Below are positions 804-18,312 of a stretch of 28,367 nt of DNA, piece after piece. Under the pieces are notes generated by a model. It was not told the DNA's origin and searched no databases. It saw only the letters and a program-made list of their open reading frames with translations. This DNA comes from a virus: positions 1 through 28,367 of the IMG/VR virus record IMGVR_UViG_3300008108_005111. One strand, 5' to 3'. The translations under genes and the position numbers were made by a program. How positions within the stretch are numbered: the stretch's first letter is position 1; every line of letters begins with the position of its first letter.

Positions 804-2270
804 TCAGAAAGTAAACTTGGTCTGGATTACACCACCCCACTTGGAGGCATTGTCGTTCAGACGCTGGTTGTCACTAGCATAGAAGATAGCAGGAGTGATG
901 CTGATATTATCGGACACTTGATACTTGTAGAAGATTTCAAGCATCGTTGCATCTTCAAGGTCTTCACCCGTAGGTGCTTGACCAACAGCAATACCAGCAG
1001 AGTTACCCTTAGCAAATACATCTGCCCACTGGAGACCAGCAAACCACGACTCACTATCGGTAGCAGCACTAGCAGTTCCACTTACAGTGTTCCAACCATA
1101 TCCAGCAGAGATAGAAGGAACCCAACCCGATTGAGTAGGTTGCCAGTAAGCATTCACGGCATAACCACTAGAGGTTTGACCAGGAACCAGAGTGCCAGAA
1201 GAACCGTTCAGACCGTTGTAGGTGCGAACACGGGTGCCTTCAGTACCATAACGATAACCAGCACCGATGCCCCAGTTCTGTCCACGATAACCAATCTGTG
1301 CCAGAGTATTCAGAGCACCAGTTTCATCAAAGACACCAGTTTCACTATCGTCACCATTCTGAGCAACATAGTTTACACCAGCAATGAAACCTTGCTTACC
1401 AGGTTGACGCCAGAGGGCACCAAAACCAGCACCAGTTGCCTTGTTATACACACCAGGAGTACCAGCAACTTGGAAGAAATCAAGGATTTCTGACTTATAA
1501 GCAGAAGGAATCCAAGCCATTTCAGTGTTACGAACAACAGGTCCAGCAGTCAATGTCAGACCTTTCGTAAGAGCAGGGAACTGATAGTACAGACGATCAA
1601 TAACTACAGTATCACCAACTTGGGATTCAGTGTTATCTGCCTTGTCCAGTTTGAACAGGGAAGAAGAAGAACCAAAGGGATCAGTGCTGAAATTAGCAGC
1701 ACGAAGACGGGTACGGAGCAGATCCTTACCAGTAAACGAAGTGTCAAAGTTCAGACGAACATCATAGTTGAAAGCAGTACGAGTGCTAACATCGGTTTTA
1801 GTATCATAACCAGGAACACCTCCGAGAACGAAGGTTGCTTCACCACGAAGTTTAGTCGTAGTGGAAAATTGAGTTGCCTCAAGTTGACCAACCTTTGCTT
1901 CCAGACCGTCAACACGACCACGAAGAACAGCAAGTTCTTGTGCGAATTCTGCCTGAAGACGCTTCAGTTCATCGGTAACTTCAGTCACACGATCCAGGCA
2001 AGCATTCAGAAGAGCAGCTGCCTCATAACGAGTCATTGACTGACCACCACCATAAGTGCCATTAGGATAACCAGCAACACAACCATATTGCTCAACAAGG
2101 TTGCTCAGTGCTTGATATGCCCAATCGGTAGGACGAACATCAGAGAACTGTGCGATGCTCGTAACCTGAGATTCTACATAAGGTCCATAAGTCCCATAGG
2201 GTTCTGCGAACGCAGCACCAGCGACTAGTGGAGTTGCAGCAAGGGTTGCTGCGAAAGCGGATTTAAACAT
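804..2270 (-). CDS. SLH-domain outer-membrane porin (cyanobacterial Som/OprB-like)
   Basis: A 488-aa cyanobacterial-type porin. Residues 1-22 are a signal peptide ending in AGAAFA. Residues 38-95 form an S-layer-homology domain (FSDVRPTDWAYQAL, GYPNGTYGGGQSMTRYEAA), which anchors such porins to peptidoglycan-linked polymer. Residues 95-135 look like a coiled coil. The rest is barrel-like, with alternating aromatic strands and the terminal Phe (QTKFTF) typical of BAM substrates. The ATG at 2270 is preferred over an in-frame ATG 34 codons upstream because it begins the signal peptide and has GAGGT just before it. The gene has its own promoter region and terminator. It probably supports solute uptake across the infected cell's outer membrane (inference). 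It looks richer in G+C than the island next to it. Confidence 0.9.
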   Translation of the reverse strand: MFKSAFAATLAATPLVAGAAFAEPYGTYGPYVESQVTSIAQFSDVRPTDWAYQALSNLVEQYGCVAGYPNGTYGGGQSMTRYEAAALLNACLDRVTEVTDELKRLQAEFAQELAVLRGRVDGLEAKVGQLEATQFSTTTKLRGEATFVLGGVPGYDTKTDVSTRTAFNYDVRLNFDTSFTGKDLLRTRLRAANFSTDPFGSSSSLFKLDKADNTESQVGDTVVIDRLYYQFPALTKGLTLTAGPVVRNTEMAWIPSAYKSEILDFFQVAGTPGVYNKATGAGFGALWRQPGKQGFIAGVNYVAQNGDDSETGVFDETGALNTLAQIGYRGQNWGIGAGYRYGTEGTRVRTYNGLNGSSGTLVPGQTSSGYAVNAYWQPTQSGWVPSISAGYGWNTVSGTASAATDSESWFAGLQWADVFAKGNSAGIAVGQAPTGEDLEDATMLEIFYKYQVSDNISITPAIFYASDNQRLNDNASKWGGVIQTKFTF

Positions 2271-2379
2271 AAGTACCTCTATATTTTCTCGCAGAGTTTT
2301 CCTGCGGATGTAAGGAGTTTCGACATAACTCCGTTTATTCAGTGACTCAACAAGTATTTGAGGTCTTGCCACCAGAACG

Positions 2380-2387: not shown

Positions 2388-2413
2388 CTAACAGTTTGTT
2401 AAGATTTTGTCAA
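2385..2413 (-). promoter_or_regulatory. Sigma70-like promoter of the porin with Pho-box-like repeat
   Basis: TTGACA (2413-2408), a 17-base spacer and TAGGAT (2390-2385) form a near-consensus host-type promoter on the minus strand. The -35 box overlaps the stop codon of the GT25 gene. Within it, CTTAACAA (2403-2396) and GTTAGGAT (2392-2385) repeat with an 11-bp period, resembling the pstS Pho box. Confidence 0.6.
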
Positions 2414-3207
2414 GATTCTTGTTGCCCTGCCGTATTTTCAACGATTCTTCCAAGATATGGATCATAATTCATCAAATCGTCAATTTTTAGTTGTGCTCCA
2501 ACTTGTTGCCAGTAATTAAGCAATGCATCGTGATTTCCCCTATGAAATGCATCAATATGTTCTGGATGAATAGAAGAACCCAATTCAATTTTATAAAGAA
2601 GAAGTGGAATTGAGTAAGTATTTGCTGAATTGTAAATTAAATCATCTGCAACTGGTCGTGGTTTTACTCCATTATCTAAACGATACTTATTACCCTTTAC
2701 ATGAAACTTGATAAGTTTTTCTGCGTGATGTCTTGTAATCAAATAACAAGCAGTAGAAAAATCATTTACAAATCTCTTATGAAGTTTTACATGCAAGTCA
2801 CCGGTACAAATAATTGCAATTTGAACTACATCCCAATCGTAAGGAACATGAGAATAAAAATCTTGCCAGGTAAAATTCCAATACTTAACTAGATCTAAAT
2901 TACAATCATCCTCCATAATAATTGCATAGGGAGAATCTGATGTTTCATACCAATACTTAATTGCTTTTAAGTGAGATGTTACACATCCTATTTCACCAGA
3001 AGTCATCATTTCAGGATAACGACCAGAAAGAATATCACTTAGATCATCTTCTCGACCATCATAAGCAGATATGCGAGTATAATTTTCAATTTCCCAATAC
3101 TTAAATTGGTCCTCCATATACTGCTGCCTTTCTTGTTGACCGTCAAGATTTAGATAATATATTGGACCAATATTTTTAAGTTTGTACGTTGATTTGTTTT
3201 TATCCAT
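2410..3207 (-). CDS. Glycosyltransferase family 25 (LPS-type)
   Basis: This 265-aa protein matches GT25 transferases, which add galactose or related sugars to lipooligosaccharide. It has the N-terminal YYLNLDGQQERQ block, the SGEIGCVTSHLKA block and the acidic IMEDDCNL motif in the position of the metal-binding DxD. The C-terminal part carries a PVADDL segment. The ATG at 3207 is chosen over an in-frame TTG at 3216; the TTG would overlap the upstream stop codon. It is the last gene of the polysaccharide island in transcription order, and the porin promoter starts in its stop codon. Confidence 0.82.
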   Translation of the reverse strand: MDKNKSTYKLKNIGPIYYLNLDGQQERQQYMEDQFKYWEIENYTRISAYDGREDDLSDILSGRYPEMMTSGEIGCVTSHLKAIKYWYETSDSPYAIIMEDDCNLDLVKYWNFTWQDFYSHVPYDWDVVQIAIICTGDLHVKLHKRFVNDFSTACYLITRHHAEKLIKFHVKGNKYRLDNGVKPRPVADDLIYNSANTYSIPLLLYKIELGSSIHPEHIDAFHRGNHDALLNYWQQVGAQLKIDDLMNYDPYLGRIVENTAGQQES

Positions 3208-3212
3208 AATAT

Positions 3213-3560
3213 TCAATCACCCGGAGATACCCGATTACTATCTTCATCAAAATGCTGAGTAGAAAACTCAAAAAGTTCAGTATCCTCTAAAGCAATCATT
3301 TGATGCCTTAAACCTCTATAAACATGAAAATTATCTCCAGGTCCTAAAATAATTTCAAATTCTGGAGTATCAGTATCAGAATATTTTAAAAGAATTTTTC
3401 CACTCTGAATGTAAAAAGTTTCATCTTTTAGATTATGATAATGCCAAGAACATTTTTTACCTTTTACAAGGTAAAGAAGTTTACCGCAATACTCTTCAGT
3501 ATTGACAATCCATTTTTCAAATCCCCATCCTTTGGGGACAAATTTAATTGAAGAACTCAT
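3213..3560 (-). CDS. Small cupin protein, sugar-isomerase-like
   Basis: A 115-aa single-domain cupin. The metal-binding cupin motif is visible as SWHYHNLKDETFYIQSG (two His, one Glu), followed by the second motif GDNFHVYRGLRHQM. Small cupins of this kind occur in polysaccharide clusters as mannose-6-phosphate-isomerase-like or sugar-epimerase proteins. It overlaps the HAD gene by 17 bases and is followed 5 bases later by the GT25 ATG, so it is in the same transcript. It could supply the sugar isomerase otherwise missing from the adjacent kinase/nucleotidylyltransferase module, but that role is inferred. Confidence 0.7.
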   Translation of the reverse strand: MSSSIKFVPKGWGFEKWIVNTEEYCGKLLYLVKGKKCSWHYHNLKDETFYIQSGKILLKYSDTDTPEFEIILGPGDNFHVYRGLRHQMIALEDTELFEFSTQHFDEDSNRVSPGD

Positions 3561-3873
3561 TTGCGTTTATTCCCTTATCATCAATGTAATAATCACCAGA
3601 GGGTTTACCTAGAATAAGTTTGTGATATTTACATCCCCACTTTTCTAATTGATCTGCAGTTAGTGAATAAAAACTTTGTTCTGCTAGATCTGCATTATCG
3701 TTATATCGACCCATTCCTCTAGCTGTTAGATATACGATTGTATGACCTTCATCGTATAGTTTATTTATTTTATCAATTCTATCTTTTTTGGGAATACTAG
3801 TGTCGTAATCACAATCATCACGACACTCAGGTTTATCACAAATTGTGCCATCAACATCAATTACATATTTCAT
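3544..3873 (-). CDS. HAD-superfamily phosphatase, capsule/LPS type
   Basis: A compact 109-aa HAD hydrolase. It has motif I DVDGTIC (Asp7 and Asp9), motif II in VYLTARGM and motif IV in the GDYYIDDKGI segment; it is too short to hold a cap domain. HAD proteins of this size sit in capsule and LPS clusters and probably remove phosphate from a sugar phosphate. It is shorter than GmhB, the phosphatase of the heptose route. It starts inside the 3' end of the kinase gene and overlaps the cupin gene, suggesting coupled translation. Confidence 0.75.
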   Translation of the reverse strand: MKYVIDVDGTICDKPECRDDCDYDTSIPKKDRIDKINKLYDEGHTIVYLTARGMGRYNDNADLAEQSFYSLTADQLEKWGCKYHKLILGKPSGDYYIDDKGINANEFFN

Positions 3874-4618
3874 TTATATCTTCCTCCGTAAGAATATAGG
3901 AACCCAAATGCTGAACTGATTTAGTTGCTAAGATTATGCATTTTGGTATTGTATCATAAAAATTATTATTGGATAAGTAAAAATAGCACAACGATGCTAA
4001 AAATATATCACCAGCACCAGTTACATCATACACATCTACATGAGGTGCTTTAAAATGTTTTCCATTATAAAATGCTCCACTTTTACCATGAGTAACGATT
4101 AATTCATTAGAATCTGATATTTTTACATGTTCTGCTTCATATTGATTTATTTTTATGATGGCATTTGGAAATATACTAAGATCCTTTCTTTTACTATCTA
4201 CGAAAATTGGTCCACTAAAAGTTTCACAAATATTTTTAATTGATATTGGATCTATAAATCCTTTATCATAATCCGAAATTACAATGGCATCATAATTTTC
4301 AGTAATTTCTATTGGTTTTGAAGTAACGGAATTTCCAATATCTTCTCTTAATAATTGATTCATTGATTTTAAATCAACAAATCTCCTTTTAATTAATTGT
4401 TCGGGATTATTTGTATGGAAATCACATTCAACTCCAAATGATAAAAGATTTAAAAAAACATTATGAGACATCCCTAAAGATCTTTTTGTTTCCTTGTGCT
4501 GAAGAATAGGAACTGGAGCTTCAGGACTCAATCTTTCACAAGTTCCATAGACATATTCGTCTACACAACTATCGCCTATCAATAATACTTTGAATTGTTT
4601 TTGTCGTTGAATACTCAT
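3857..4618 (-). CDS. PfkB-family sugar kinase, HldE (RfaE) N-domain-like
   Basis: A 253-aa kinase of the ribokinase/PfkB family. The N-terminal VLLIGDSCVDEYVYG and RLSPEAPVPI blocks are typical of the heptose-7-phosphate kinase domain of HldE. The C-terminal DVTGAGD motif (198-204) holds the catalytic Asp and anion hole. It is shorter than the roughly 310-aa HldE kinase domain, and the usual PGGAANVA segment reads SLGMSHNV, so the substrate may differ. It overlaps the nucleotidylyltransferase gene by 50 bases. The two halves of HldE are thus separate genes in swapped order. Confidence 0.82.
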   Translation of the reverse strand: MSIQRQKQFKVLLIGDSCVDEYVYGTCERLSPEAPVPILQHKETKRSLGMSHNVFLNLLSFGVECDFHTNNPEQLIKRRFVDLKSMNQLLREDIGNSVTSKPIEITENYDAIVISDYDKGFIDPISIKNICETFSGPIFVDSKRKDLSIFPNAIIKINQYEAEHVKISDSNELIVTHGKSGAFYNGKHFKAPHVDVYDVTGAGDIFLASLCYFYLSNNNFYDTIPKCIILATKSVQHLGSYILTEEDINEICN

Positions 4619-4970
4619 CTATTCTATCAAAAAATAAAAGTTTTGCCGCATAACAAGAACCTATGATAGATTTATCTTTCCAATCAGATCCAACTACCAT
4701 GATGTTTGGTCGAACTAATTTAATTAAATTTTCAAGTTCTTCATCAGTACCAAAAAATTTGACTTCATCAACTGATTTTAAATTTAATAACATAATCCTC
4801 CTATCTTTTTCACCATTAACTGGTCTAGAAGGACCCTTTTTCTCTCTCACTCTATCATCTGTATCTATTCCGACAACAACATAATCCCCCAAGGATCTTG
4901 CATAATTTAACAATGCAAGATGTCCTGGATGAAGAACATCAAAGGTTCCATTAACAAATACCTTTGTCAT
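4569..4970 (-). CDS. Sugar-phosphate nucleotidylyltransferase, HldE C-domain/TagD-like
   Basis: A 133-aa cytidylyltransferase-fold enzyme. GTFDVLHPGHLALL near residue 8 contains the HxGH nucleotide-binding motif. The C-terminal YSTTKTIQSI matches the (I/Y)STT motif of the family. It resembles the ADP-heptose-forming half of HldE, which joins a sugar 1-phosphate to a nucleotide. It overlaps both neighbours (SDR upstream by 4 bases, kinase downstream by 50), which supports a shared pathway. A glycerol-3-phosphate cytidylyltransferase-like role is an alternative. Confidence 0.85.
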   Translation of the reverse strand: MTKVFVNGTFDVLHPGHLALLNYARSLGDYVVVGIDTDDRVREKKGPSRPVNGEKDRRIMLLNLKSVDEVKFFGTDEELENLIKLVRPNIMVVGSDWKDKSIIGSCYAAKLLFFDRIDEYSTTKTIQSIIDRR

Positions 4971-5944
4971 GAAATTTTATTATACCAGTACATTAATAGA
5001 TCTTCAAGAGTTTTATCAATAGAATATTCTTCCTTAAATCCTGTCATTTCAACCAGATTGGTAGAATCTCCATGCTGATAATAAATTTCATGAGGTCTCC
5101 AGAAAGGATCATGAATCTTTTGTTCTACATTTTTTAATCCAGAAATCTCAATCAATTTATCAGTAAAGAACTGCATCTTACGAGGAGTGTCTCCGCAAAT
5201 ATTAAACACATGATTAACAACATCATTATTAATCATTGCAAGATAATATGCACGAACAGTATCACGAACGTCCATTACAACGCGAGTAGTCTCAAGATTA
5301 CCTACTTTAAGAATAGGTTCCTGAAAACCCTTCATTATTCTAGCAATTTGATAGGCATCAGAAGAAATTGAAAATATCCTTCCCCTACGTGGACCAGTAT
5401 GAGAGAATGCACGAGTAATAAATCCCTTAATAAATCCATTATGCATTCTTTCTTGGAGATAAAGATCCGTTGCAGCCTTTGATGCTCCGTAAGGATTTGC
5501 TGGGAAAATAGTATCTTCCCAATGAATCTCTCTACCGTCTTGGCCCACATTTCCATAAACTTCAGATGTAGAGCAAAACATCAATTTACATTCAGGTTGA
5601 TGATCCTGAATTACTTGAATTAGATTTGCACTTCCCATTACATTAGTTTCCATTGTTCCGATAGGATCAATAAAACTGGTTGGAGGATGGGATTGTGCCG
5701 CTAGATGAAATACACCATCAAATTTATTTTCTTCAAAAACTTTTCTCGTAGATCTATAATTACATAGATCTCCATATAAGAAAGTAATTGAAGTATAAAC
5801 TTCATCTCGAACAACATCACGAATATCACTCTCCATTCCATTCGTGCGTCTAATCAATCCATAGATTTCATGACCCTCTTGATGTAATAGATTTGCCAAA
5901 TGAGGACCGGCAAATCCAGTAATTCCTGTGATTAAAAATTTCAT
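4967..5944 (-). CDS. NAD(P)-dependent SDR, GDP-sugar 4,6-dehydratase-like
   Basis: A 325-aa extended SDR. It has the N-terminal nucleotide-binding TGITGFAG motif and the active-site set Thr126-Ser127-Glu128, Tyr152 and Lys156. The T-S-E triad is what GDP-mannose 4,6-dehydratase uses; the later AFSHTGPRRGR segment is also of the GMD/RMD type. It may act as a GDP-sugar 4,6-dehydratase or as the reductase that follows one. It lies one base downstream of the GT9-like gene. If it is a dehydratase it could replace the broken gmd at 17481-18312. Confidence 0.8.
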   Translation of the reverse strand: MKFLITGITGFAGPHLANLLHQEGHEIYGLIRRTNGMESDIRDVVRDEVYTSITFLYGDLCNYRSTRKVFEENKFDGVFHLAAQSHPPTSFIDPIGTMETNVMGSANLIQVIQDHQPECKLMFCSTSEVYGNVGQDGREIHWEDTIFPANPYGASKAATDLYLQERMHNGFIKGFITRAFSHTGPRRGRIFSISSDAYQIARIMKGFQEPILKVGNLETTRVVMDVRDTVRAYYLAMINNDVVNHVFNICGDTPRKMQFFTDKLIEISGLKNVEQKIHDPFWRPHEIYYQHGDSTNLVEMTGFKEEYSIDKTLEDLLMYWYNKIS

Positions 5945-5945
5945 A

Positions 5946-6674
5946 TTAGTAAGTCAAATACTCAATGTTATCAAAAAGAAAAAGTCCACGTTCTTTATGG
6001 ATATTATACCACTTTTGAGGTATTACACAAATACTCTTAAGATCTGGAGAATATTCTTTTAGAGCAGAACTTAAATGACTGGCACCACTACTTAAGGAAA
6101 CTAATCCATAAGAAGAAGAAATTAAATCACAATACCTAAAAATATTTTCAACTTCAATATAACCATCAAACCCAACATCATATGTGTTATGTTTTCCATC
6201 AGAAACTTGTTTTGTAAAATAAACTGAAAGAAATTTTCTATCCGGATACTCAGTTTTTAAATCAGACAAAATATTCGCAAGTTGATTTTTATCATAATCA
6301 ATACTAATACAACTAAAATCTACGATAAAAATATCTTTTACATCTTTATGATTTTCTGGTTCATAATAGATTTTTGGATGCGTATTAATTGGTTCTAAAC
6401 CATGCAGTTTTTCCCAATTTAAAATAGTATTATTCATCAAATTAGAATATGAAATTTCTGGAATATCTCCAGCATTCCAAACTCCTTCTTTTTTACCCTC
6501 CACGTAAGGGTTTTTCCCCCATACTAAATCATAAATCTCGGGATTTCTAAAGGGAGCACTCTCTAGAATATAAGTTCTCTTTCCATGTTGTTTTGCAAAT
6601 TGTTCGGGTAGAGTTGAAAATTGCAAACTATCTCCCAAACCACCATGATATGCTTTTAAAAAAATGTCAGTCAT
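5946..6674 (-). CDS. Putative glycosyltransferase, GT9 (heptosyltransferase)-like
   Basis: A 242-aa protein with the layout of short GT9-type enzymes: an N-terminal GGLGDSLQFSTLPEQFAK segment for acceptor/phosphate binding and a C-terminal LVSLSSGASHLSSAL segment like the GGLSHLAAAL block of ADP-heptose:LPS heptosyltransferases. It is shorter than the usual 320-350 aa. It sits directly before the SDR, nucleotidylyltransferase and kinase genes, consistent with transfer of the sugar they make. The first 8 bases overlap the previous gene. Confidence 0.65.
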   Translation of the reverse strand: MTDIFLKAYHGGLGDSLQFSTLPEQFAKQHGKRTYILESAPFRNPEIYDLVWGKNPYVEGKKEGVWNAGDIPEISYSNLMNNTILNWEKLHGLEPINTHPKIYYEPENHKDVKDIFIVDFSCISIDYDKNQLANILSDLKTEYPDRKFLSVYFTKQVSDGKHNTYDVGFDGYIEVENIFRYCDLISSSYGLVSLSSGASHLSSALKEYSPDLKSICVIPQKWYNIHKERGLFLFDNIEYLTY

Positions 6675-8073: not shown

Positions 8074-8742
8074 TTAATCTAATTTAACGCACAAAACGTT
8101 ACCTAAAAGAATATTGTTATTATAACCTATTTCTTGCAATCTGTCTAACAGATTATCTAATTCCTCAAATCCACATTTAACTTGATTTAATCTATCATCA
8201 TTAGGATTGGGATGTGGTTTTTCAAAATAAATTATTTCTGGATATATTTTTTGATCTATAAATTGATTGACAATTTCCATATCAAATCCTTCAGTATCAA
8301 TTACTAAAACATCTACCGAAGAATCGCATGACTTCATTAGAGTAGAAACTGTAATTCCATCTACCAACTCATAATGATTTTCATCAAAAAGAGTATATGA
8401 ATCATTTTGCCTTAAAAGAAGGGTAGAGTGTCCCGAAGTTCCTTTAGGATCTATATTTTTATATAATTTTATCTCGCCATCAGTGCTAGAAATAGCAACA
8501 TTTAAAAAACTAATCCTATTTTTTTGGTCGGAATAATTATTTTTTAATTTATCAAATTCTATTTTTTGTGGTTCAATCAAAACTGAAAAAATTCTGACAT
8601 CATTTCTTATTAGATCCCTCACAGGATCCTCCATGAAATTTTCATCAGACCCATCATTTGCTCCAATTTGTATTAAAAAAATTTTTTCACGTTTATAAAA
8701 TTTTTGTTTTACAATATTATGAAAATACTCTATGTCATTCAT
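8074..8742 (-). CDS. FkbM family methyltransferase
   Basis: A 222-aa FkbM methyltransferase: FLIQIGANDGSDENF (SAM site), SVLIEPQK (acidic strand) and VLVIDTEGFDMEIVNQF (the family's IDxEGxE-like block). The start overlaps the upstream GT2 stop by 4 bases, so translation is probably coupled. It is likely to act on a sugar or lipid-linked glycan (inference). Confidence 0.85.
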   Translation of the reverse strand: MNDIEYFHNIVKQKFYKREKIFLIQIGANDGSDENFMEDPVRDLIRNDVRIFSVLIEPQKIEFDKLKNNYSDQKNRISFLNVAISSTDGEIKLYKNIDPKGTSGHSTLLLRQNDSYTLFDENHYELVDGITVSTLMKSCDSSVDVLVIDTEGFDMEIVNQFIDQKIYPEIIYFEKPHPNPNDDRLNQVKCGFEELDNLLDRLQEIGYNNNILLGNVLCVKLD

Positions 8743-9569
8743 TTTAATACCCTGTTTTCGTCATGACTTTCTGTTAGAATAATATTTTTGTGTCTATCAA
8801 AAACTATTCTAGTATTTTTATGGTGTGCCTTAAGTAACCAAGGAGCAGGATTTTTTCCATCCGGTCTTGTTCCACCCCAAGCATTATCACAATCATAATC
8901 AATCCAATAGGAACCCACAACTTTACCTAAGTGTTTAAATGCTCTATAACATAAATCAGCATCATCTTGATCTTGTGGAGAAAAAATTTCATCAAAATAA
9001 TCCAATACAATTAAATCACTATGATCAATCATTAGTGGACCTCTATTGACGTTATTTCTTACTGCAAAAATATTTCTACTTAGACCTTCATCTCGATTTA
9101 TATGGGATTCATATTCAAAAATGTCACTCCAACAATTATCTATTTTAGAGTCTTCTTCTGGGGATAAGTGAATGTGTTGACTATTTTGATTAAATCTATA
9201 ATTAAAAGCAGACCTAGCAGTTACAGCAAATACATCGACAAATTCATCAAATGGTTTCTCAAGTCTTTTATTCCACCCATCTTCTTTAATAACCATATCA
9301 TCTTGAACTATGATTACTTTATCACCTACACATTCCTTTAATCCAGCATTATTTGCTTTTGTTTCAAAAACATCTGGGGTATAAACTGTTTTCGTTTTAA
9401 CCAAAGAATTATTACTGATAAAGTTCTCCCACACCTCTTCAGATTTATCAGTACATCCGTCTAGGACCACTACCAATTCATAATCTCCAATAGTATTTTT
9501 TACTATTCCATCAAGAACATTCGAAAGTAACCAATCTTTATTATGAACGGTCAGAACTATACTATGCAT
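8739..9569 (-). CDS. Family 2 glycosyltransferase (GT-A)
   Basis: A 276-aa GT2 enzyme. It starts MHSIVLTVHNKDWLLSNVL and has the nucleotide-binding VVVLDGCTDKSEEVW and IIVQDDMVI acidic segment. The ATG at 9569 has GGGAG eight bases upstream, so it is preferred to the in-frame TTG five codons earlier. It overlaps the upstream gene by 13 bases. The acceptor and donor cannot be told from sequence alone. Confidence 0.85.
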   Translation of the reverse strand: MHSIVLTVHNKDWLLSNVLDGIVKNTIGDYELVVVLDGCTDKSEEVWENFISNNSLVKTKTVYTPDVFETKANNAGLKECVGDKVIIVQDDMVIKEDGWNKRLEKPFDEFVDVFAVTARSAFNYRFNQNSQHIHLSPEEDSKIDNCWSDIFEYESHINRDEGLSRNIFAVRNNVNRGPLMIDHSDLIVLDYFDEIFSPQDQDDADLCYRAFKHLGKVVGSYWIDYDCDNAWGGTRPDGKNPAPWLLKAHHKNTRIVFDRHKNIILTESHDENRVLK

Positions 9570-10306
9570 CCAGTTTCTCCCCAATTATAAGACCCATTTG
9601 AATACTCTTCACCATTCTTATGTATTAGGGTATTCCACTGAATAAAATTTCTAACTCCAGTATGACCAACAACTCTCGGAAGATCGTACTTTAACTGCAA
9701 ATTAGTTATAATACTTTGATCGTGCCTATGATCTACAAAACCATCAAAATTATCCAATCCACATTCATTTGGAATATCGGTTACTATTCTTTCGTCGCAA
9801 CAATATTTAAGGAACTCATTTAATAGGTGAATATTATATTCCGTTTTCTTAAAAGCCATAAATCCATCTTCCAATTGAATTGCTTCCCAATACTTTTCAC
9901 TGTCACAATTCATATAATAAAAACAATCTCTTTTAGTAAATAATTTATGAATACCCGTGTGATTTTGAGATAGAAAATATTGATCGTTTGTTTTCATATA
10001 TTCATAAACACATTGTCTAATTCCAGGAAAAGGAATGTCTCCACAATCCATATAAACTATTACATCGCCTTCTTCAATAAGATTAAATGCTTCTAATATA
10101 ATATAAGGTTTCCATATTGCATACCCAGCAAGACGATCTTTATCAAGGATTTTTTTATTATCCTTATAAAAATTAGTTTCAGTTAACCATTCTCTAGTAA
10201 AAGGTATAGCTGCATCAAATAATCTATTACCAATCACATGGGATATAAGATCTTCTTGATGTTTTTTATAATTAAGGTCAGAATAATTTATATAAACTAA
10301 TTTCAT
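9557..10306 (-). CDS. Putative GT-A glycosyltransferase
   Basis: A 249-aa protein. GYAIWKPYIILEAF, VIVYMDCGDIPFPG (a DxGD in place of DxD) and a later DQSIITN segment match short GT-A-like transferases of capsule clusters. No signal peptide or membrane segment is visible. It overlaps genes on both sides (upstream by 4 bases, downstream by 13), so it is part of the same translationally coupled series. Family number not assigned. Confidence 0.6.
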   Translation of the reverse strand: MKLVYINYSDLNYKKHQEDLISHVIGNRLFDAAIPFTREWLTETNFYKDNKKILDKDRLAGYAIWKPYIILEAFNLIEEGDVIVYMDCGDIPFPGIRQCVYEYMKTNDQYFLSQNHTGIHKLFTKRDCFYYMNCDSEKYWEAIQLEDGFMAFKKTEYNIHLLNEFLKYCCDERIVTDIPNECGLDNFDGFVDHRHDQSIITNLQLKYDLPRVVGHTGVRNFIQWNTLIHKNGEEYSNGSYNWGETGCIV

Positions 10307-11184
10307 TTTATTCTCTCCTTAACATAATCTTGATTTTCATAATACTTTACCAATTCTTCTTTTGAAAGATTTTTAAGATACTCCCATAAAGAATTATTAT
10401 TTTGCATATGAGGATTATGATACCAAGAGTTTTGAGTTCTTTGATGCTCTAAATGATATGCATGATTATCTATTCGTCCTATATTATATCCTAATGTTTT
10501 CCAACGATGATATCTTTCTACATCTTCTGGAGCATATGCTATAAACCCTTCATTTTCTAAGTATCCATCAACGTATACTTTTTTATTAAAGAATTGAACC
10601 ATACCATATTCAGCCCATCCTTCTCCAAATTGACTTTGATAATAAAAATAAGTATTATCAAAACATTCAGAATCGTATCCAGAATTAATAAATTTATCGA
10701 CAAATATTTTTTTCTCAAAATTATCCATATCATCCTGAGTTTCAACTGTAAAGTCTAAAGTGACCTTTCGTTCCCCATGATTACCAAATCTATATGGATA
10801 AACAACATCATAATTATCATTTAACATTTCAACAGACTTAATATAACTGTCTAATGGAAGAATAATATCAGTATCATAGTTAACAACTATTTTAGTTTTC
10901 GCATCTAAAATCATGTCATTAAGAACTTTTGTACGATGAAACGCATCATCAGTTCTAGTATCATCCTCAAACACATGGTTTAAATTTTGAGTATCAACAA
11001 GTCTTTGAATAATAGGTAAAGCATAAGTTTCAAACCTATGCTCGGAATCAACTTCTTTAATTATAACATTTGTATCAAAATGATGTAAGAGATAAGAGGT
11101 AGTCAATATAACGTTCCTTAACCTGTCTCCAGTATCAATTCTTAACGGAATAATAAATGTTACATCTTTTAAATCAATCTTCAT
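10303..11184 (-). CDS. GT-A glycosyltransferase (galactosyltransferase-like)
   Basis: A 293-aa protein. VTFIIPLRIDTGDRLRN opens a GT2-like fold and VVNYDTDIILP carries a clear DxD. A later APEDVERYHRWKTLGY segment resembles the galactosyltransferase C-terminal motif (E-D-x-E/D). The ATG at 11184 has GGAGAG seven to eight bases upstream and is chosen over a start 21 codons earlier. The first 11 bases overlap the GT11 gene. Confidence 0.75.
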   Translation of the reverse strand: MKIDLKDVTFIIPLRIDTGDRLRNVILTTSYLLHHFDTNVIIKEVDSEHRFETYALPIIQRLVDTQNLNHVFEDDTRTDDAFHRTKVLNDMILDAKTKIVVNYDTDIILPLDSYIKSVEMLNDNYDVVYPYRFGNHGERKVTLDFTVETQDDMDNFEKKIFVDKFINSGYDSECFDNTYFYYQSQFGEGWAEYGMVQFFNKKVYVDGYLENEGFIAYAPEDVERYHRWKTLGYNIGRIDNHAYHLEHQRTQNSWYHNPHMQNNNSLWEYLKNLSKEELVKYYENQDYVKERIK

Positions 11185-11983
11185 TAATAACTCTCCATTC
11201 TTGTGGAAATAAGTCTTTAGTAGATTTATCTTGGTTATTCGGACCAAACCACCTATTAGGATATATTACCACCTTATCCATATTATCACAAAGCCAAGCA
11301 GCCCACCAAGAAAACGTAGAATTTGCAATTATAAAGTCAGAACACTTAGACATTATGCATAGATCTAGATAAGAATTTCCAGTTTCGCAAACTAAAAATC
11401 TATCATCAGAAAATAATTCTTGTTCTTTACACCACTCAGTATCATCTGAAAAAATAATAACCTGTCGATCTTTATCAAATTCTTCTAATGCATTTTTATA
11501 ATAATTTAAAGATAAATTATAATGATTTTCAGAATTAATTAGAAAGTCTCCACGACGAATATGAAGTGCTATTGGATCATCAAATAAATTTTTAATTTCG
11601 TTATAGGAATTTATATACTCTTTTTTGAAGGTAAAATCTTTTTTAATTTGATTCGATATATGTTTAAAATATTTTTCACTCTGAAAATATCCGATCAAAC
11701 AACAATCATCAGGACAATTATTGAATAAATTTTCATCAAAAGAAAATTCAGATTCTTGACAATGTTTTTGTGTATTTAAAAATCCAAATTTATCTACATG
11801 AAAATCAAAAACATCAAATAGTTCTATTCTCAGTTTATTCCCTAAACCATCATCAACAACTTCATTATGATTTGGAATGCAAAAATCATAATTTTTATTC
11901 GCAGCAATTCCCTTTATTGCCGCATATTGAAACATCTGATTTCCAAGTTGTCCCATTTTACCAAGATAGTTTAATCCAATCAT
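11174..11983 (-). CDS. Family 11 glycosyltransferase (alpha-1,2-fucosyltransferase-like)
   Basis: A complete 269-aa GT11. It has GQLGNQMFQYAA near the N-terminus, HIRRGDF, VIIFSDDTEWCKEQ and NSTFSWWAAWL, the four GT11 blocks. These enzymes transfer L-fucose or a related GDP-L-sugar, which fits the GDP-mannose-derived sugar genes upstream. The start is set at 11983 (MIGLNYLGKMGQLGN), matching the paralogue's MIGYNRLG; no strong ribosome site is seen. Its first 26 bases overlap the end of the truncated paralogue upstream. Confidence 0.88.
   Translation of the reverse strand: MIGLNYLGKMGQLGNQMFQYAAIKGIAANKNYDFCIPNHNEVVDDGLGNKLRIELFDVFDFHVDKFGFLNTQKHCQESEFSFDENLFNNCPDDCCLIGYFQSEKYFKHISNQIKKDFTFKKEYINSYNEIKNLFDDPIALHIRRGDFLINSENHYNLSLNYYKNALEEFDKDRQVIIFSDDTEWCKEQELFSDDRFLVCETGNSYLDLCIMSKCSDFIIANSTFSWWAAWLCDNMDKVVIYPNRWFGPNNQDKSTKDLFPQEWRVINED
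11393..11448. repeat. Direct repeat in the GT11 genes, copy A
   Basis: This 56-base segment matches 11991-12046 at all but four positions. It encodes the SDDTEWCKEQELFSDDRFL part of the complete GT11. Such closeness at the nucleotide level, in contrast with the divergent rest of the two genes, points to recent duplication or gene conversion. Confidence 0.85.
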
Positions 11984-12563
11984 CCGGCAGTAAAAATCTA
12001 TCATCAGAAAAAAATTCTTGTTCTTTACACCATTCAATATCATCGGAACATATCAGAACATTTGAATCACTGTCAAAATGCTCCAAAGATTTTTTGTAAT
12101 ATTCTAAAGGTGGAACTGGGTGATATTCTTCTCTACCAACATTGTCACCTCTGCGGACATGAAGAAAAATAATTTTTTTATATTGATCAATAAATTCTTT
12201 GCACGGAGTAAGAATATCATCAATAAATTCAAAATCTTCACGAATTTCATCTTCAATATGTTTGAAGTATTTTTCAGTTTGAAGATACCCATCTAGGTTA
12301 TGATTATCAGGAAAATTATCAAATAGATCTTCATCAAAGTGAAAAAAGGATTCTTCTTTTGTTGGATATGAAACTATTCCAGTATTCTTCAAATGTTTCA
12401 ATTTAAATGGATGAAAAATTCCATAATTTGCATACGTTTCATAATCATCTGGAGGAATACACCATTCATAATTATGTTTAGCAGCAATTCCCCTTAAAGA
12501 AGCATATTGGAATAATTGATTTCCAAATCTACCATTTGTCCCAAGTCTATTGTATCCGATCAT
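11958..12563 (-). pseudogene. Truncated GT11 fucosyltransferase paralogue
   Basis: This 201-aa ORF begins like a full GT11 (MIGYNRLGTNGRFGNQLFQYA), keeps HVRRGDN and the LICSDDIEWCKEQEFF block, then stops after a short unrelated tail (PDDWIKLSW). The tail is simply the start of the next GT11 gene read in another frame. The STFSWWAAWL block and about 80 residues are missing, so activity is doubtful. A deletion between tandem copies explains it: the last homologous block and the neighbour's copy share a 56-base near-identical repeat. It starts 13 bases after nadE. Confidence 0.75.
11991..12046. repeat. Direct repeat in the GT11 genes, copy B
   Basis: The partner of 11393-11448, with four differences over 56 bases. 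It ends next to the point where the truncated GT11 loses homology and runs into the next gene. Confidence 0.85.
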
Positions 12564-12576
12564 ATTTTTTTGTTTC

Positions 12577-13350
12577 TCACAGTTTAAATGTAGGAATAGA
12601 TAACATCTTATGTTTGTTTTGGGAATTAAATTTTTGATACGCATTAATTGCAGTTATTTGTTCTCCATTCAAGAACATTGGATCTTGGTTTAATCCATCT
12701 TCCATCACCCACTCAAGCATTTTATATGATGTACCAATTTGATCCTCATCAGTTCTTCCATCATCCCAAAGACCATCAGTAGGAGAAGCATCAATAATGC
12801 GTTGATCTACACCAAAATGCCTGCCAAGTTCCCAAACCTCAGTCTTATAGAGATCTGCGATAGGAGCAACATCAACTCCACCGTCACCATATTTAGTATA
12901 AAATCCTACACCATAATCTTCAACTTTGTTTCCAGTACCAACTACAATACCCCCAACTGAGGTAGCAACCTGATATAACGTTACCATACGAATACGAGAA
13001 CGTGTATTTGCAAGGGCGTGAGTATCAGTACCAAATTCTCTCATCGTGTATTTAAAGGTCTCAAAAACTTTAGTAAGATCATACTTCTGTATGATAACAT
13101 TACTAAAGTTTTCTTGCAACCATTCAAGATGTGCGTCAGAAAGTGTTTCCTGTTCTTCTTTTTGAAGAATTGGCATCCCAAGAGCATAAACTGGAAGACC
13201 CGTTTTAGCAGCAAGAGTCGATGAAACTGCAGAATCAATTCCACCAGAAACACCAATTACGAATGACTTAATATTAAATTTTTCGGCATATTCTTTTAAC
13301 CAAGAAACAATGCGTGTTTCAAGTTCTGAATAATCTGTAATTCGATTCAT
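12577..13350 (-). CDS. nadE: NAD+ synthetase (NH3-dependent type)
   Basis: NadE converts nicotinate adenine dinucleotide to NAD+ with ATP and ammonia. This 257-aa protein has the P-loop SGGIDSAV (35-42) and the NAD-synthase block VVGTGNKVEDYGVGFYTKYG followed by DLYKTEVWELG. There is no glutaminase domain, so free ammonia would be the donor. AAGGAG lies before the ATG, which overlaps the preceding stop (ATGA). It is the only cofactor-biosynthesis gene in the island; it could support the NAD(P)-dependent sugar enzymes or restore NAD+ in the infected cell (both inferred). Confidence 0.92.
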   Translation of the reverse strand: MNRITDYSELETRIVSWLKEYAEKFNIKSFVIGVSGGIDSAVSSTLAAKTGLPVYALGMPILQKEEQETLSDAHLEWLQENFSNVIIQKYDLTKVFETFKYTMREFGTDTHALANTRSRIRMVTLYQVATSVGGIVVGTGNKVEDYGVGFYTKYGDGGVDVAPIADLYKTEVWELGRHFGVDQRIIDASPTDGLWDDGRTDEDQIGTSYKMLEWVMEDGLNQDPMFLNGEQITAINAYQKFNSQNKHKMLSIPTFKL

Positions 13351-14285
13351 TTTTTCTCCTTATAAATTTCATGAATAGTTTTTAAAAAATCTCCAACAAC
13401 ACTATAATATGTTCCTTTAGATTTTGCAAATTCCATTCCTTGTTTTTGTTTTTCTAATCTTGCGTTGTCATTATTTAAATAATACTCTACTTTTTCTTCA
13501 AGTTCTGCATAGTTTGTTACAAGAACTGCGGCACCATCGGTTGCTTCCACTGCCATAGGACAATCAGTTAGAACGACGCACCCATAAGCAACTCCTTCAA
13601 AAACTCTTTCAGTAGGCATACCATTTTCGACAGCATGATCTGAATTAAATCCAAGACAAATTTTTGAATCAAGAAAAACTTTTTGAAGTCTAGTTTCTTC
13701 ATCAAGAAAAGGTGGATAATAATGAATAAAACAATTATACTTTTCACTCAATTTTCTAGACCAATCTACCTTATATTGACACCCACAAAATCCACAATCA
13801 TGAGTATCTGTTCTTTTACTCCATAATTCTTCCAAAGTATCTGGATGTTTTCCTGCAGAAAATGGAAGAGGAACATAATTTTTTAAATTAATATAGTATT
13901 CGAAGTTTTTTCCTAACACATCAATGTTTGGGTTTCTATAATATTCTCCAGTAAAAATACTTTTCTTAAACGGAAATAAATCATCTTCATATAAAATACT
14001 TAAAACATTATGGAAAGACCAAAAAATCCAAACAGATTTTGAAAATTTTTCTGCAAGAAATTTAAAGTCTTCCTTCCAAGATGGTCTACGATGATCGTAA
14101 AAGTTATCACATAAAAAGAAAATTTGATCTTCGGAATCTTCTAATTGATTGAATGTACTAAAATCCGTAATTTCATTGCATTCCAAACCATGATATGAAA
14201 ACGTATTTATAAATTTAAGATTAAAAAGATAATTAGTACCCAAACTAGGGTATTCGGGAGTATTAATTAAATAAATTCTTTTCAT
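13347..14285 (-). CDS. GT-B glycosyltransferase (GT4/CgeB-like)
   Basis: A 312-aa protein with a GT-B C-terminal half: KICLGFNSDHAVENGMPTER, VFEGVAYGCVVLTD and a long helix ending in the last 30 residues. The PTERVFEGVAYGC segment is the donor-binding pattern of CgeB-like and GT4 enzymes. A CGFCGCQ segment near residue 170 could be a metal site. The ATG at 14285 is used rather than the TTG two codons earlier; the stop overlaps the nadE start. Confidence 0.75.
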   Translation of the reverse strand: MKRIYLINTPEYPSLGTNYLFNLKFINTFSYHGLECNEITDFSTFNQLEDSEDQIFFLCDNFYDHRRPSWKEDFKFLAEKFSKSVWIFWSFHNVLSILYEDDLFPFKKSIFTGEYYRNPNIDVLGKNFEYYINLKNYVPLPFSAGKHPDTLEELWSKRTDTHDCGFCGCQYKVDWSRKLSEKYNCFIHYYPPFLDEETRLQKVFLDSKICLGFNSDHAVENGMPTERVFEGVAYGCVVLTDCPMAVEATDGAAVLVTNYAELEEKVEYYLNNDNARLEKQKQGMEFAKSKGTYYSVVGDFLKTIHEIYKEKK

Positions 14286-14287
14286 AA

Positions 14288-15355
14288 TCAAACTGGATGA
14301 TGAATCATTTTATTTTTATATACTTGCTTATCAATCCATTCATAGGTTTTACGAATACCTTCTTCCAGAGATTGAGAATAGTCCCATCCAAGTTTTTCCC
14401 GAATAAGATCATTGTTAGAATTACGACCTCTAACTCCAAGAGGACCGTCAATATGTTTCTTAGTAATTTCTTTTCCTGCAACTTTAGCAGCAGTATCAGC
14501 AAGGGTGTTAATAGTAACCATTTCCTCAGAACCAATATTTACTGGACCAAGAAAATCTGAATCCATCAGACGACGAGTTGCCTCAATACATTCATCAATA
14601 TAAAGGAAAGAACGAGTCTGTTCTCCGTCACCCCAGATTTCAATTTCTCCACCATTTGGAGAAAGTTCAGCAACTTTACGACACATTGCTGCAGGTGATT
14701 TTTCTCTACCACCAGTCCAAGTTCCTTCAGGTCCAAAGATATTATGATATCGAGCAATCCTTACAGGAATTTTATGATTTCTATTATAAGCAAGATAAAG
14801 ACGTTCAGAAAAAAGTTTTTCCCATCCATACTCAGAATCAGGTCCTGCAGGATAAGCATCAGACTCCTTTAGACCAGGATTATTAACATCCATCTGAGCA
14901 TATTCTGGATACATACAAGCACTACTACTATAGAAAATTTTAGTCCTGTTCGTATCTTTAGAGCAATTAAGTTCCTTTACAGACTCAAGAATATTGAGAT
15001 TAATTGCTGCCGAATTATGCATAATTTCGGCATCATTTTCACCACTAAAAACAAATCCTGCTCCCCCCATATCAGCAGCAAACTGATAAATTTCATCGAA
15101 TGGTTCTTGATATCTTTCAGGAACGGAAGTATAAAAATTTCTACCGTATCCCATAAATCTTACAACTCGATCAACAAGTCTAGAATCTGTAAGATTACCA
15201 AGAATAAATTCGTCTGCAGCAGTATCGGAGTACTCTGGCATCTTTACATCAACACCACGAACCCAATACCCCTCACTTTTAAGTCTTCTTACCATGTGAC
15301 TTCCAATAAAACCACCAGCACCACACACTAAAGCAGTTTTTTTATATTGACTCAT
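14288..15355 (-). CDS. GDP-mannose 3,5-epimerase-like SDR
   Basis: A 355-aa extended SDR closely patterned on plant-type GDP-mannose 3,5-epimerase, which makes GDP-L-galactose and GDP-L-gulose. Visible features are the N-terminal CGAGGFIGSHMVRRL, QFAADMGGAGFV, the catalytic Cys147 in SSSACMYPE, and Tyr176/Lys180 (YGWEK). A later RYHNIFGPEGTW fits the family. The ATG at 15355 has GGAGG seven bases upstream; a TTG two codons earlier is less likely. It starts a sub-unit behind a late-promoter-like motif and could supply a GDP-L-sugar for the GT11 enzymes. Confidence 0.88.
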   Translation of the reverse strand: MSQYKKTALVCGAGGFIGSHMVRRLKSEGYWVRGVDVKMPEYSDTAADEFILGNLTDSRLVDRVVRFMGYGRNFYTSVPERYQEPFDEIYQFAADMGGAGFVFSGENDAEIMHNSAAINLNILESVKELNCSKDTNRTKIFYSSSACMYPEYAQMDVNNPGLKESDAYPAGPDSEYGWEKLFSERLYLAYNRNHKIPVRIARYHNIFGPEGTWTGGREKSPAAMCRKVAELSPNGGEIEIWGDGEQTRSFLYIDECIEATRRLMDSDFLGPVNIGSEEMVTINTLADTAAKVAGKEITKKHIDGPLGVRGRNSNNDLIREKLGWDYSQSLEEGIRKTYEWIDKQVYKNKMIHHPV

Positions 15356-15390
15356 ATTCAATCCTCCATAAATGAGTAATGATTTTTTGG

Positions 15391-15398
15391 TATTTATT
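15391..15398 (-). promoter_or_regulatory. Late promoter motif AATAAATA inside the island
   Basis: AATAAATA on the minus strand lies in the only sizeable gap (about 50 bases) within this part of the operon, 36 bases before the epimerase ATG. Position and sequence fit an internal NATAAATA late promoter. Confidence 0.5.
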
Positions 15399-15405
15399 AA
15401 TATTA

Positions 15406-16572
15406 TTATACACCCATTATTGAGATTAGTCTATCAATTCGTTCTTTATTTACAAATTGACTATTACCAACATATACTCCGTTTTGATGAAGTATAGAAA
15501 CATTTGGTATTTCTTTCTGAGTACAAAGTTTATATTTACTAAATGCAGGATGCAAAAGAATATTTCCACTAATAATAGGACGATACTCTATACCACTTGA
15601 TTTCAATTCTTCTTTCATTAATGAAATTTTATATTTTTCTTTAGCAATAATAGGAAAACAAAAACTACTATTTCCTATCTGATATTCAGGAACAAAATAA
15701 TTTTCAGTCTTAAATATCCTATCCCACCAATATTTAAAGTTTTCTCTACGAATTTGGATATTACTATCTAACCTCTTTAATTGAGAAAGTCCTAAAACAG
15801 CACAAACCTCATGATTTCTAAGGTTAAATCCTTCAGTCATAAACAAAAAGGTAGGATCAATATTTGGATTTTCTTCTGAGTACTTTTTAAACATATGAGG
15901 AGATGCTTCTCGTGCCATTCCATGACTACGTTTCATTCTCATCAACTCATAAAGTTCGGTATTATTAGTACAAACAACCCCACCCTCAACTGTTGTAATA
16001 TGATGACCAAAATAAAAACTAAAAGTTGATCCTACAGAATTTATTCCACGTTTATTTCCATCTGGACCCCTTACTCCGTGAGACTCACAAATATCTTCCA
16101 TAATTAATGCATTCGGAAAGATTTCACGAACCTTTTCTACATTAGAAGAAAGTCCAATCAGATGAGTAATGAATACTGCTTTAATGTCTGGATGTTCAGA
16201 TGCAATATATTTCAACTCATCAACATCAAAAGAAAAATTCTTAAGATTAATATCACAAAAAATAGGTTGAAGATTTGCCTGAATTACAGGAGCAATATTA
16301 GTCATCCAAGTACAAGACGGAACAAGAACTTTATCTCCATCTTGCAATCCATAATGTTCTTTAACTGAAGAAATTAACAAAGTATTTGCTGTACTTCCAC
16401 TTGAAACATATAAAGAATGTTTAACACCTAACCACTCAGACCATTTCTGTTCAAATTCCCGAACCTTTGGTCCATTGGTAAGTTTATCACTCATTAAAAG
16501 AAACAGTGCCATTTTAAGACGATCAGAAAGTGTGATCGTATTTTCCATCAACGGCCAAGTAGATTTAGACAT
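15406..16572 (-). CDS. PLP-dependent GDP-4-keto-6-deoxymannose 3-dehydratase (ColD-like)
   Basis: A 388-aa member of the DegT/DnrJ/EryC1 fold. The residue that forms the PLP Schiff base in aminotransferases is Lys; here the segment reads FYFGHHITTVEGG, with His190-His191. That substitution marks the sugar 3-dehydratases; in ColD the base is His188 and the protein is also 388 aa. The PLP ring-binding Asp is seen in MEDICESHG (Asp160). ColD removes the 3-hydroxyl of GDP-4-keto-6-deoxymannose on the way to GDP-L-colitose. It follows the fcl-like and gmd genes with an 8-base overlap, which fits that pathway. The exact substrate is inferred. Confidence 0.85.
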   Translation of the reverse strand: MSKSTWPLMENTITLSDRLKMALFLLMSDKLTNGPKVREFEQKWSEWLGVKHSLYVSSGSTANTLLISSVKEHYGLQDGDKVLVPSCTWMTNIAPVIQANLQPIFCDINLKNFSFDVDELKYIASEHPDIKAVFITHLIGLSSNVEKVREIFPNALIMEDICESHGVRGPDGNKRGINSVGSTFSFYFGHHITTVEGGVVCTNNTELYELMRMKRSHGMAREASPHMFKKYSEENPNIDPTFLFMTEGFNLRNHEVCAVLGLSQLKRLDSNIQIRRENFKYWWDRIFKTENYFVPEYQIGNSSFCFPIIAKEKYKISLMKEELKSSGIEYRPIISGNILLHPAFSKYKLCTQKEIPNVSILHQNGVYVGNSQFVNKERIDRLISIMGV

Positions 16573-17491
16573 AATTCCTATTTAAATAATCAACAATTTT
16601 TTCAATACCTTCTTTCAAAGAAGTCTTTGGTTTCCACCCCAAAGAGTTTAAGTTACTAACATCAAGAACTCTTCTTGCTGCTCCATTTGGTTTTGAAGTA
16701 TCCCACACTATTTTACCATCATATCCGATGATATTGCAAATCAAGTCAACTATCTCCACAATACTAGTTTCAATACCAGTGCCAATATTAATAAACGAAT
16801 CTGTTTTTTGAGTCATTAGAAAAATTGCAGCATCAGCAAGATCATCGGAATATAAAAATTCTCTTTTAGGAGATCCATCACCAAAACATTCAATCTGAGG
16901 AATGTTATCTCTCTTTGCTTTCCAAATTTTATAAATCAAACTAGACATTACATGTGCGTTAGGAGAATCAATTTTGTTTTCTATACCGTAAATATTACAA
17001 GGATTCACAGAAATAAAATTAGATCCATATTGTTTTCTATATGCCTCACAAAGTTTAATACCAGACACTTTAGCAATCGAATAAAACTCGTGCGTTTTTT
17101 CAAAGTTACCCATCATTAGACTTTCTTCTTTTATGGGCATAGGACTTTCTTTAGGATAAACACAGGAAGAAGCAAAAAACATTAACTTATTAACACCATA
17201 CTTATGAGAAGATGAAATTACATTATTTTGAATGTTTAGATTATCCAACAAATAATTCACCGGATTGTTAATATTATCCAATATTCCACCACACTTTGCA
17301 GCAGTTAAAAATACATATTCAGGTCTTGCAAGTCTAAAGAAAGAATCAGTTTCTTCTTGATCTGTAAAATCTATAAGATGACGAGTCCCCTTTATAATAT
17401 TCGTATAACCTTCACTTTCAAGGTTTCTTACGATTGCAGATCCAACCATTCCGTTAGCACCAGCAACTAATATCCTAGAATCATTTTTCAT
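16565..17491 (-). CDS. fcl: GDP-L-fucose/GDP-L-colitose synthase-like reductase
   Basis: A 308-aa SDR of the GDP-fucose synthase (WcaG) family, which epimerises at C5 (and C3 for fucose) and reduces the 4-keto group. Active-site features are present: ASSCVYPK with Ser108/Ser109 and Cys110, and Tyr137/Lys141 in EFYSIAKVSG; NPCNIYG follows. ColC of the colitose route belongs to the same family, so next to a ColD-like gene the product could be GDP-L-colitose. The ATG at 17491 overlaps the end of the gmd remnant by 11 bases. Confidence 0.88.
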   Translation of the reverse strand: MKNDSRILVAGANGMVGSAIVRNLESEGYTNIIKGTRHLIDFTDQEETDSFFRLARPEYVFLTAAKCGGILDNINNPVNYLLDNLNIQNNVISSSHKYGVNKLMFFASSCVYPKESPMPIKEESLMMGNFEKTHEFYSIAKVSGIKLCEAYRKQYGSNFISVNPCNIYGIENKIDSPNAHVMSSLIYKIWKAKRDNIPQIECFGDGSPKREFLYSDDLADAAIFLMTQKTDSFINIGTGIETSIVEIVDLICNIIGYDGKIVWDTSKPNGAARRVLDVSNLNSLGWKPKTSLKEGIEKIVDYLNRNYV

Positions 17492-18312
17492 TGAGACACA
17501 TATCTTTAACAAGTTCTTTAAAAGAAGTTCTAGGTTCCCATCCTAATTTTGCCTTTGCTTTAGATGCATCACCCAATAAGGTATCAACTTCAGCAGGTCT
17601 AAAGTATTTCTCATTAACAATGACTCTTACAAGTCCAGTATTTTTATCCATACCAACTTCATTACCATAAATGTCATTCTGCCATTCAATATCCATACCA
17701 AAGTAAGGTGCTGCTTCTTCAACAAATTCACGAACAGAATATTGTTCTCCAGTTGCAATTACATAATCATCAGGTTCATCTTGCTAGGATTCCAGAGCAG
17801 GCATATATTCCATATGCTTCACGATAATTTCTGGTAGTCCAATATGCATAAAGTTTGGCACAACCATAAGGAGAACGTGGATAAAATGAAGTAGTCTCTT
17901 TCTGAGGAATCTCTTGTACCTTACCAAACATCTCAGAAGTAGATGCTTGGTAAATTCTAACTTTTTTATCTAAACCAAGAAGACGAACTGCTTCTAGAAC
18001 ACGAAGAGTTCCTAAAGCATCAACTTGACCTGTATATTCAGGAGTTTCAAAAGAAACTTTTACGTGACTTTGAGCACCAAGATTATAAATTTCATCAGGT
18101 TGAACGTCTCGAACTACTCGAATTATATTAGTAGAATCACTAAGATCACCGTAATGAAGTTTAATTCTATTAAAAATATGATCGATTCTATCAGTATTAA
18201 TCATCGAAGAACGACGAATAATTCCATGAACTTCATATCCTTTATCTAAAAGAAATTCTGCAAGATAAGATCCATCTTGACCCGTAATACCCGTTATTAA
18301 TGCTATTTTCAT
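17481..18312 (-). pseudogene. gmd: GDP-mannose 4,6-dehydratase, broken by an internal deletion and frameshift
   Basis: The N-terminal part (from ATG 18312) is a normal [18 protein letters not shown], Thr125-Ser126-Glu127 in ASTSEMFG, Tyr149/Lys153 in [12 protein letters not shown], and [10 protein letters not shown]. It then stops at a TGA near 17779. The C-terminal part resumes in another frame with [15 protein letters not shown] and runs to 17481 (ending KDMCLNEK). The stretch between, which in GMD carries NHESPRRGE and the KRDWG block (about 60 codons), is absent. The joint lies near 17784-17787. GMD makes GDP-4-keto-6-deoxymannose, the substrate for both downstream enzymes. As read the gene cannot give a full enzyme; the host gmd or the SDR at 4967-5944 may compensate, or the assembly may be wrong. 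Confidence 0.88.

Follow-up and report, generated by a model that had tools for sequence, protein, structure and literature searches.

Activated heptoses are formed by two described routes, for which the isomerization by GmhA represents the only step that is "first and common" to both (PMC5387315). The ADP-heptose pathway comprises GmhA, HldE, GmhB, and HldD, while the GDP-6-deoxy-heptose set of Campylobacter is arranged as hddC-gmhA2-hddA-dmhA. Heptose synthesis is regarded as starting universally with GmhA, which is a drug target. In T4-like cyanophages, the gene clusters T4-GC 304, 305, 307, and 308, found among the lipopolysaccharide (LPS) genes of P-SSM2 and S-SSM7, co-occur and are probably functionally linked, although neither a pathway nor a role of the cupin was assigned there (Sullivan and colleagues, PMC3037559). 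Likewise, heptose-related LPS genes were described for phage SynMITS9220M01 (PMC7378029). The mere presence of heptose-type genes in cyanophages is therefore no novelty. The same nucleotidylyltransferase, kinase, cupin, and epimerase families as in P-SSM2 and S-SSM7 are encoded in the virus record IMGVR_UViG_3300008108_005111, which was analyzed over its positions 1 to 28,367 (in the following termed the window) and contains the six-gene module considered here at 3213-6674. The closest annotated relatives of this 28 kb record are Synechococcus and Prochlorococcus myoviruses; the window is a member of the T4-like cyanophages, and the host group of the virus comprises photosynthetic ocean and lake bacteria. 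The new point of the present analysis is the cupin, which points to a new enzyme family. Judged from sequence comparison, it is very probable that the window carries a cyanophage nucleoside diphosphate (NDP)-heptose module in which the cupin acts as a non-homologous replacement of GmhA.

In common with the ADP-heptose pathway, the window features an HldA-type kinase, an HldC-type transferase, and a phosphatase of the haloacid dehalogenase (HAD) type. It differs from this pathway by the cupin in place of GmhA, an EcbF-type HAD in place of GmhB, a kinase with about 25 residues fewer after its GM..NV motif, and a short-chain dehydrogenase/reductase (SDR) resembling 4,6-dehydratases instead of HldD, which is found in the P-SSM2 phage group. 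With its HldA/HldC-type enzymes the window is also unlike the Campylobacter GDP-6-deoxy-heptose set, with which it shares a predicted heptose 4,6-dehydratase. The first-pass annotation had described six intact open reading frames on the minus strand, and these were recovered at identical coordinates; neighboring genes in the run share 4-50 nucleotides, except for the SDR and GT9-like genes, which lie 1 nucleotide apart. The same annotation had noted the absence of GmhA from the module, and indeed no SIS-domain homologue is encoded there.

The cupin gene (3213..3560, minus strand) encodes a protein of 115 residues with a Cupin_2 domain, which is proposed to be a metal-dependent sedoheptulose-7-phosphate isomerase in GmhA's place and is not a GmhA homologue. 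Its metal site, HxH(x)4E...H, is intact, and across 42 divergent sequences the ligands H40, H42, E47, and H86 as well as K45 and E98 show little or no variation. W12-G13-x-E15-x-W17, K27, K45, and E98-x-S100 are invariant marks of its family. The structural model (predicted local distance difference test score, pLDDT, 96.8) matched best to D-lyxose isomerases in complex with fructose or mannose (TM-score 0.82), archaeal phosphomannose isomerase following further down the list. The cupin sugar isomerases, namely D-lyxose isomerase, archaeal phosphomannose isomerase, and L-ribose isomerase, hence show the same fold and an intact metal site, but share only 20-26% identity with the phage cupin, which constitutes a separate family. 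Cyanophage S-SCSM1 is known to carry genes for mannose phosphate isomerase (MPI; PMC9602691); such a function of the cupin would be compatible with the fold, but the gene context is that of heptose. No GmhA match was found among cyanophages. A literature search for work tying cupins to sedoheptulose, GmhA, ADP-heptose, or heptose returned nothing relevant, many subscription papers lying outside its coverage.

The profile of the phage cupins recovered 79 loci from cellular genomes, some of which link the cupin directly to heptose enzymes. The cupin is located C-terminal to an HldE-type kinase in a single chain in four loci (L083, L084, L085, and L117) and N-terminal to it in two (L116 and L118). 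Fusions with a C-terminal cupin, together with the GmhB-containing chain described next, were seen in Woesearchaeota, Levyibacteriota, and Parcubacteria loci, which feature HldD and WaaF homologues beside some of the fusions and contain no GmhA. Elsewhere in these phyla, GmhA itself is fused to the same kinase, e.g., in one frame of 538 residues. Besides, a single chain of 475 residues in a Woesearchaeota metagenome-assembled genome (L086, 7446-8873) combines GmhB, cupin, and HldE-C and adjoins a diverged HldE-type kinase.

The distribution of both genes was followed in two phylum samples. In the first (240 genomes; kinase threshold of at least 200 bits, cupin threshold 110 bits), 15 genomes possessed the kinase, five of them with a fused or adjacent cupin, ten with GmhA, and none with both (Fisher p 3e-4). 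The second sample (193 genomes; GmhA threshold of at least 150 bits) included 40 kinase genomes, with the cupin present in 12, GmhA in 21, neither in seven, and both in none (Fisher p 9e-6, the p-values treating genomes as independent, while the kinase tree described below addresses kinship in part). Applying looser thresholds, both genes occurred in 1/15 and 2/40 genomes (p 0.001 to 0.003). No GmhA was detected in the cupin genomes by searching for Pfam SIS_2; a divergent GmhA hidden in these genomes was considered and rejected, the SIS matches being partial and mostly situated in GlmS-like frames of 560-640 residues. Cupin and GmhA labels are intermixed on a tree comprising 52 kinases, which requires 11 changes, at least eight of them imposed by branches with good support; grouping all cupin-labelled kinases in one clade is rejected (approximately unbiased test, p 3e-5). 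Moreover, sister operons exist that differ in the first gene only, i.e., GmhA-HldD-kinase in G465 and cupin-HldD-kinase in G367. Their two common genes are 64-66% identical, and the neighbors overall 57-66%; a second pair (G526 and G534) has shared neighbors of 75-81% identity. The change between GmhA and cupin in these operons is an in-place replacement. Fusions, mutual exclusion, and in-place swaps thus support the earlier suggestion of the cupin as a possible substitute for GmhA, as it takes the place of GmhA in heptose operons and excludes it. Accordingly, it seems quite probable that the cupin represents a second, non-homologous class of sedoheptulose-7-phosphate isomerases, distributed over cyanophages, archaea including Woesearchaeota and their kin, candidate-phylum bacteria, and others, which would have displaced GmhA many times and in both the ADP- and the GDP-heptose route.

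The GDP-heptose route is represented among the phages themselves. Three of them, Bellamy, SynMITS9220M01, and AG-345-E15, have the cupin between HddA and HddC and not beside an HldA-type kinase, and in the first two a reductase and a GDP-heptose 4,6-dehydratase follow. Bellamy-type phages share HddA, HddC, and a reductase with the Campylobacter set, in which GmhA2 serves where the phages have the cupin; from this position, the cupin is predicted to fill GmhA's role in the GDP-heptose route. The constant parts between the phage loci are the cupin and, mostly, a HAD, while kinase and transferase are exchanged. In the flanks of cellular cupin genes that were examined, neither HddA nor HddC was present.

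The kinase gene (3857..4618, minus strand; phrog_8133) encodes 253 residues compared to about 315 for HldA. The first-pass annotation had regarded the kinase as devoid of the PGGAANVA segment and had concluded from its shortness that the sugar may be new. Both points need to be revised: a diverged form of the segment, GMxxNV, is present, in which G49, M50, N53, and V54 vary little or not at all, and the nearest family and fold are those of heptose-7-phosphate kinases. The true gap consists mainly of about 25 residues right after GMxxNV, aligned to residues 67-92 of E. coli HldE, whereas the diagnostic motifs RLSPEAPVPV, SDYxKG, and DVxGAGD are retained. The top profile match is HldA 4E84 (E 2.7e-28), spanning both halves, and the seven best PDB folds of the AlphaFold model (pLDDT 90) are all HldA (E 2e-19 vs 1e-11 for the next). 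With 126 bits for rfaE_dom_I, the protein remains under the curated cut-off of TIGR02198 (345 bits) and is therefore filed as HldA-like, with HldA as nearest family and fold and the catalytic motifs kept, rather than as a strict equivalog. It is best read as a shortened HldA, i.e., a putative heptose-7-phosphate kinase.

The upstream nucleotidylyltransferase gene (4569..4970, minus strand; 133 residues; phrog_7878) has rfaE_dom_II as its best NCBIfam family (111 bits, cut-off 181.5) and conserves the HxGH motif as H14xGH17, which assigns the predicted enzyme to the HldC/RfaE domain II type, although its profile is also close to Pcyt2 and TagD. The split of HldE into two genes in swapped order, emphasized by the first-pass annotation, is indeed a feature common to these phages but an ordinary one; bacteria with separate HldA and HldC genes are known. 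The HAD gene (3544..3873, minus strand; 109 residues) features invariant motif residues across phages (D6-x-D8, T50, K90, and D99). Its nearest families are EcbF/BcbF (42 bits) and the capsule HAD 9IQW and not GmhB, and it is proposed to act as 7-phosphatase in the role of GmhB without homology to it.

The extended SDR (4967..5944, minus strand; 325 residues; Epimerase/GDP_Man_Dehyd) had been taken for the HldD counterpart, which does not agree with its relatives. HldD is not its best family (heptose_epim 52 bits, gmd 112 bits), and the nearest solved structure is 7US5, a GDP-D-glycero-D-manno-heptose 4,6-dehydratase, with 190 bits vs about 90 for ordinary Gmd. Together with its T-x-E (TSExYG) and YxxxK motifs, this best relative assigns the SDR to the heptose 4,6-dehydratases of the DmhA/7US5 type, of which phage Bellamy encodes a clear representative (561 bits). 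The modules of P-SSM2, P-TIM68, and S-SM2 have HldD as their SDR (1EQ2, E 4e-43; TIGR02197, 185-210 bits), and relatives of the P-SSM2 gene adjoin the module in 13 phage loci. In the window phage and its near relatives, a 7US5-like SDR takes the place of HldD. Since both enzymes act on NDP-D-glycero-D-manno-heptose, the product of the window module is probably a 6-deoxy-heptose. The sixth gene (5946..6674, minus strand; 242 residues) encodes a putative glycosyltransferase and accompanies the module in close relatives as well as in P-TIM68. It is GT9-like by eye only: the GT9 label of the first-pass annotation found no support, as no homology to WaaC/WaaF was detected by Pfam, PDB profile, or hhalign comparison.

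Twenty phage loci, including some near-duplicates, keep the order nucleotidylyltransferase-kinase-HAD-cupin, and a rearranged module occurs in two further phages, P-TIM68 and S-SM2. This recurrence is not attributable to chance, and the search for shared gene order suggested along with the first-pass annotation was thereby answered positively for phages. The phage kinases share 33-77% and the phage cupins 54-76% identity, and their catalytic motifs are invariant. In phage records (e.g., L003 6737-7418 and L005 7841-8610), the HAD is labelled "phosphoheptose isomerase," and the cupin is termed "nucleotidyltransferase," "cysteine dioxygenase," or "glucose-1-phosphate adenylyltransferase related"; these labels swap the functions and are misleading. 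Transketolase-like and zinc alcohol dehydrogenase genes flank the module in P-TIM68 (L005 3768-5992) and S-SM2 (L006 2964-11978), the latter additionally featuring a class II aldolase nearby. These extra enzymes perhaps lead to a branched or modified sugar.

According to the proposed pathway, the cupin would isomerize sedoheptulose-7-phosphate in GmhA's place, the compact HldA-type kinase would form the 1,7-bisphosphate, and the EcbF-type HAD would take off the 7-phosphate. The HldC-type transferase would then yield NDP-heptose, which the heptose 4,6-dehydratase-like SDR may convert to NDP-6-deoxy-4-keto-heptose for the adjoining glycosyltransferases. Families, gene order, motifs, fusions, exclusion of GmhA, and swaps are read from the sequences, and from these we infer the enzymatic steps, the nucleotide, and the final glycan. 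If true, an additional isomerase unrelated to GmhA would complete the route in genomes where HldE occurs without GmhA, account for the linkage of "LPS" genes long noticed in T4-like cyanophages, and correct the annotations of HAD and cupin. Moreover, phages would tap an intermediate of the Calvin and pentose phosphate pathways for a seven-carbon sugar.

Several observations weigh against the cupin as GmhA replacement in an NDP-heptose module. Two of the 12 cupin genomes of the second sample also hold a GmhA-like gene of lower score (87 and 117 bits) distant from the kinase, one cupin of the first sample (about 100 bits) co-occurs with GmhA, though situated elsewhere, and seven kinase genomes have neither gene. 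Furthermore, the genomes are mostly metagenome-assembled, and absences can be gaps. The fold matches of the cupin are broad and include non-isomerases (CENP-C, KdgF, and oxalate decarboxylase), and many cellular relatives are located away from heptose genes, e.g., in Binatota-type and Erysipelotrichaceae loci. Next to the Erysipelotrichaceae cupins (L087 6783-8351 and the related L088-L101) lie genes for a SIS protein, for a hexulose-phosphate-synthase-like protein of the OMPdecase/HUMPS family, and for a DeoR regulator, a context which fits sugar-phosphate isomerase chemistry and suggests more than one substrate for the wider cupin family. Finally, the family scores of nucleotidylyltransferase, kinase, and HAD are all under the curated cut-offs, and the HldC-type enzyme is paired with an SDR nearest to a GDP-sugar enzyme, a pairing that fixes neither ADP nor GDP.

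An alternative would be an NDP-heptose route in which the host GmhA performs the isomerization and the cupin contributes anomer selection, C-epimerization, or a non-catalytic role. Of 101 Cyanobiaceae genomes sampled, about one in four does carry GmhA-like genes, and other cupins in heptose loci, e.g., those of the RmlC type in Campylobacter, are epimerases. Nevertheless, host GmhA does not qualify as general supplier with this frequency; the other three quarters of the sample are without it, including a Prochlorococcus genome that has phage-type cupin and kinase, and in cellular genomes GmhA is replaced by the cupin and not supplemented, which renders this explanation unlikely. The low scores, the shortened kinase, and the resemblance of the transferase to TagD and Pcyt2 could reflect a drift of kinase, transferase, and cupin to another sugar phosphate and hence a non-heptose product. 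Such a drift is very doubtful, as two distinct heptose-specific SDR families accompany the module and the same cupin is combined with HddA/HddC, an independent heptose route, in other phages; kinase family and fold and these SDR partners support the heptose-type nucleotide-sugar route that the first-pass annotation had seen. It is highly improbable that the LPS-type genes are functionless cargo, an idea raised as "stuffer" DNA for large cyanophages (PMC3037559), given intact and overlapping reading frames, catalytic motifs invariant in about 20 divergent loci, and linkage held at 40-70% protein identity.

Next to the module, a GT25 glycosyltransferase gene (2410..3216, minus strand) overlaps the cupin gene and is linked to it in several phages. 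It is followed by a phage OprB-type porin with SLH domain (804-2372, minus strand; Pfam OprB 58 bits, SLH 31 bits), which resembles an outer-membrane protein of the cyanobacterial host. On the other side, a long sugar island (8074-21723, minus strand) encodes FkbM methyltransferases, GT2, GT11, a NAD-synthase-like protein, a DegT aminotransferase, epimerases, and a UDP-glucose dehydrogenase-like protein. A GDP-mannose 4,6-dehydratase at 17776-18324 (minus strand) is represented by its first half only (182 residues; profile positions 1-180 of 332), and no second half was called, indicating truncation or an assembly error. The remaining part (22877-28269, minus strand) features 13 tRNA genes and a ferritin-like protein at 25774-26271.

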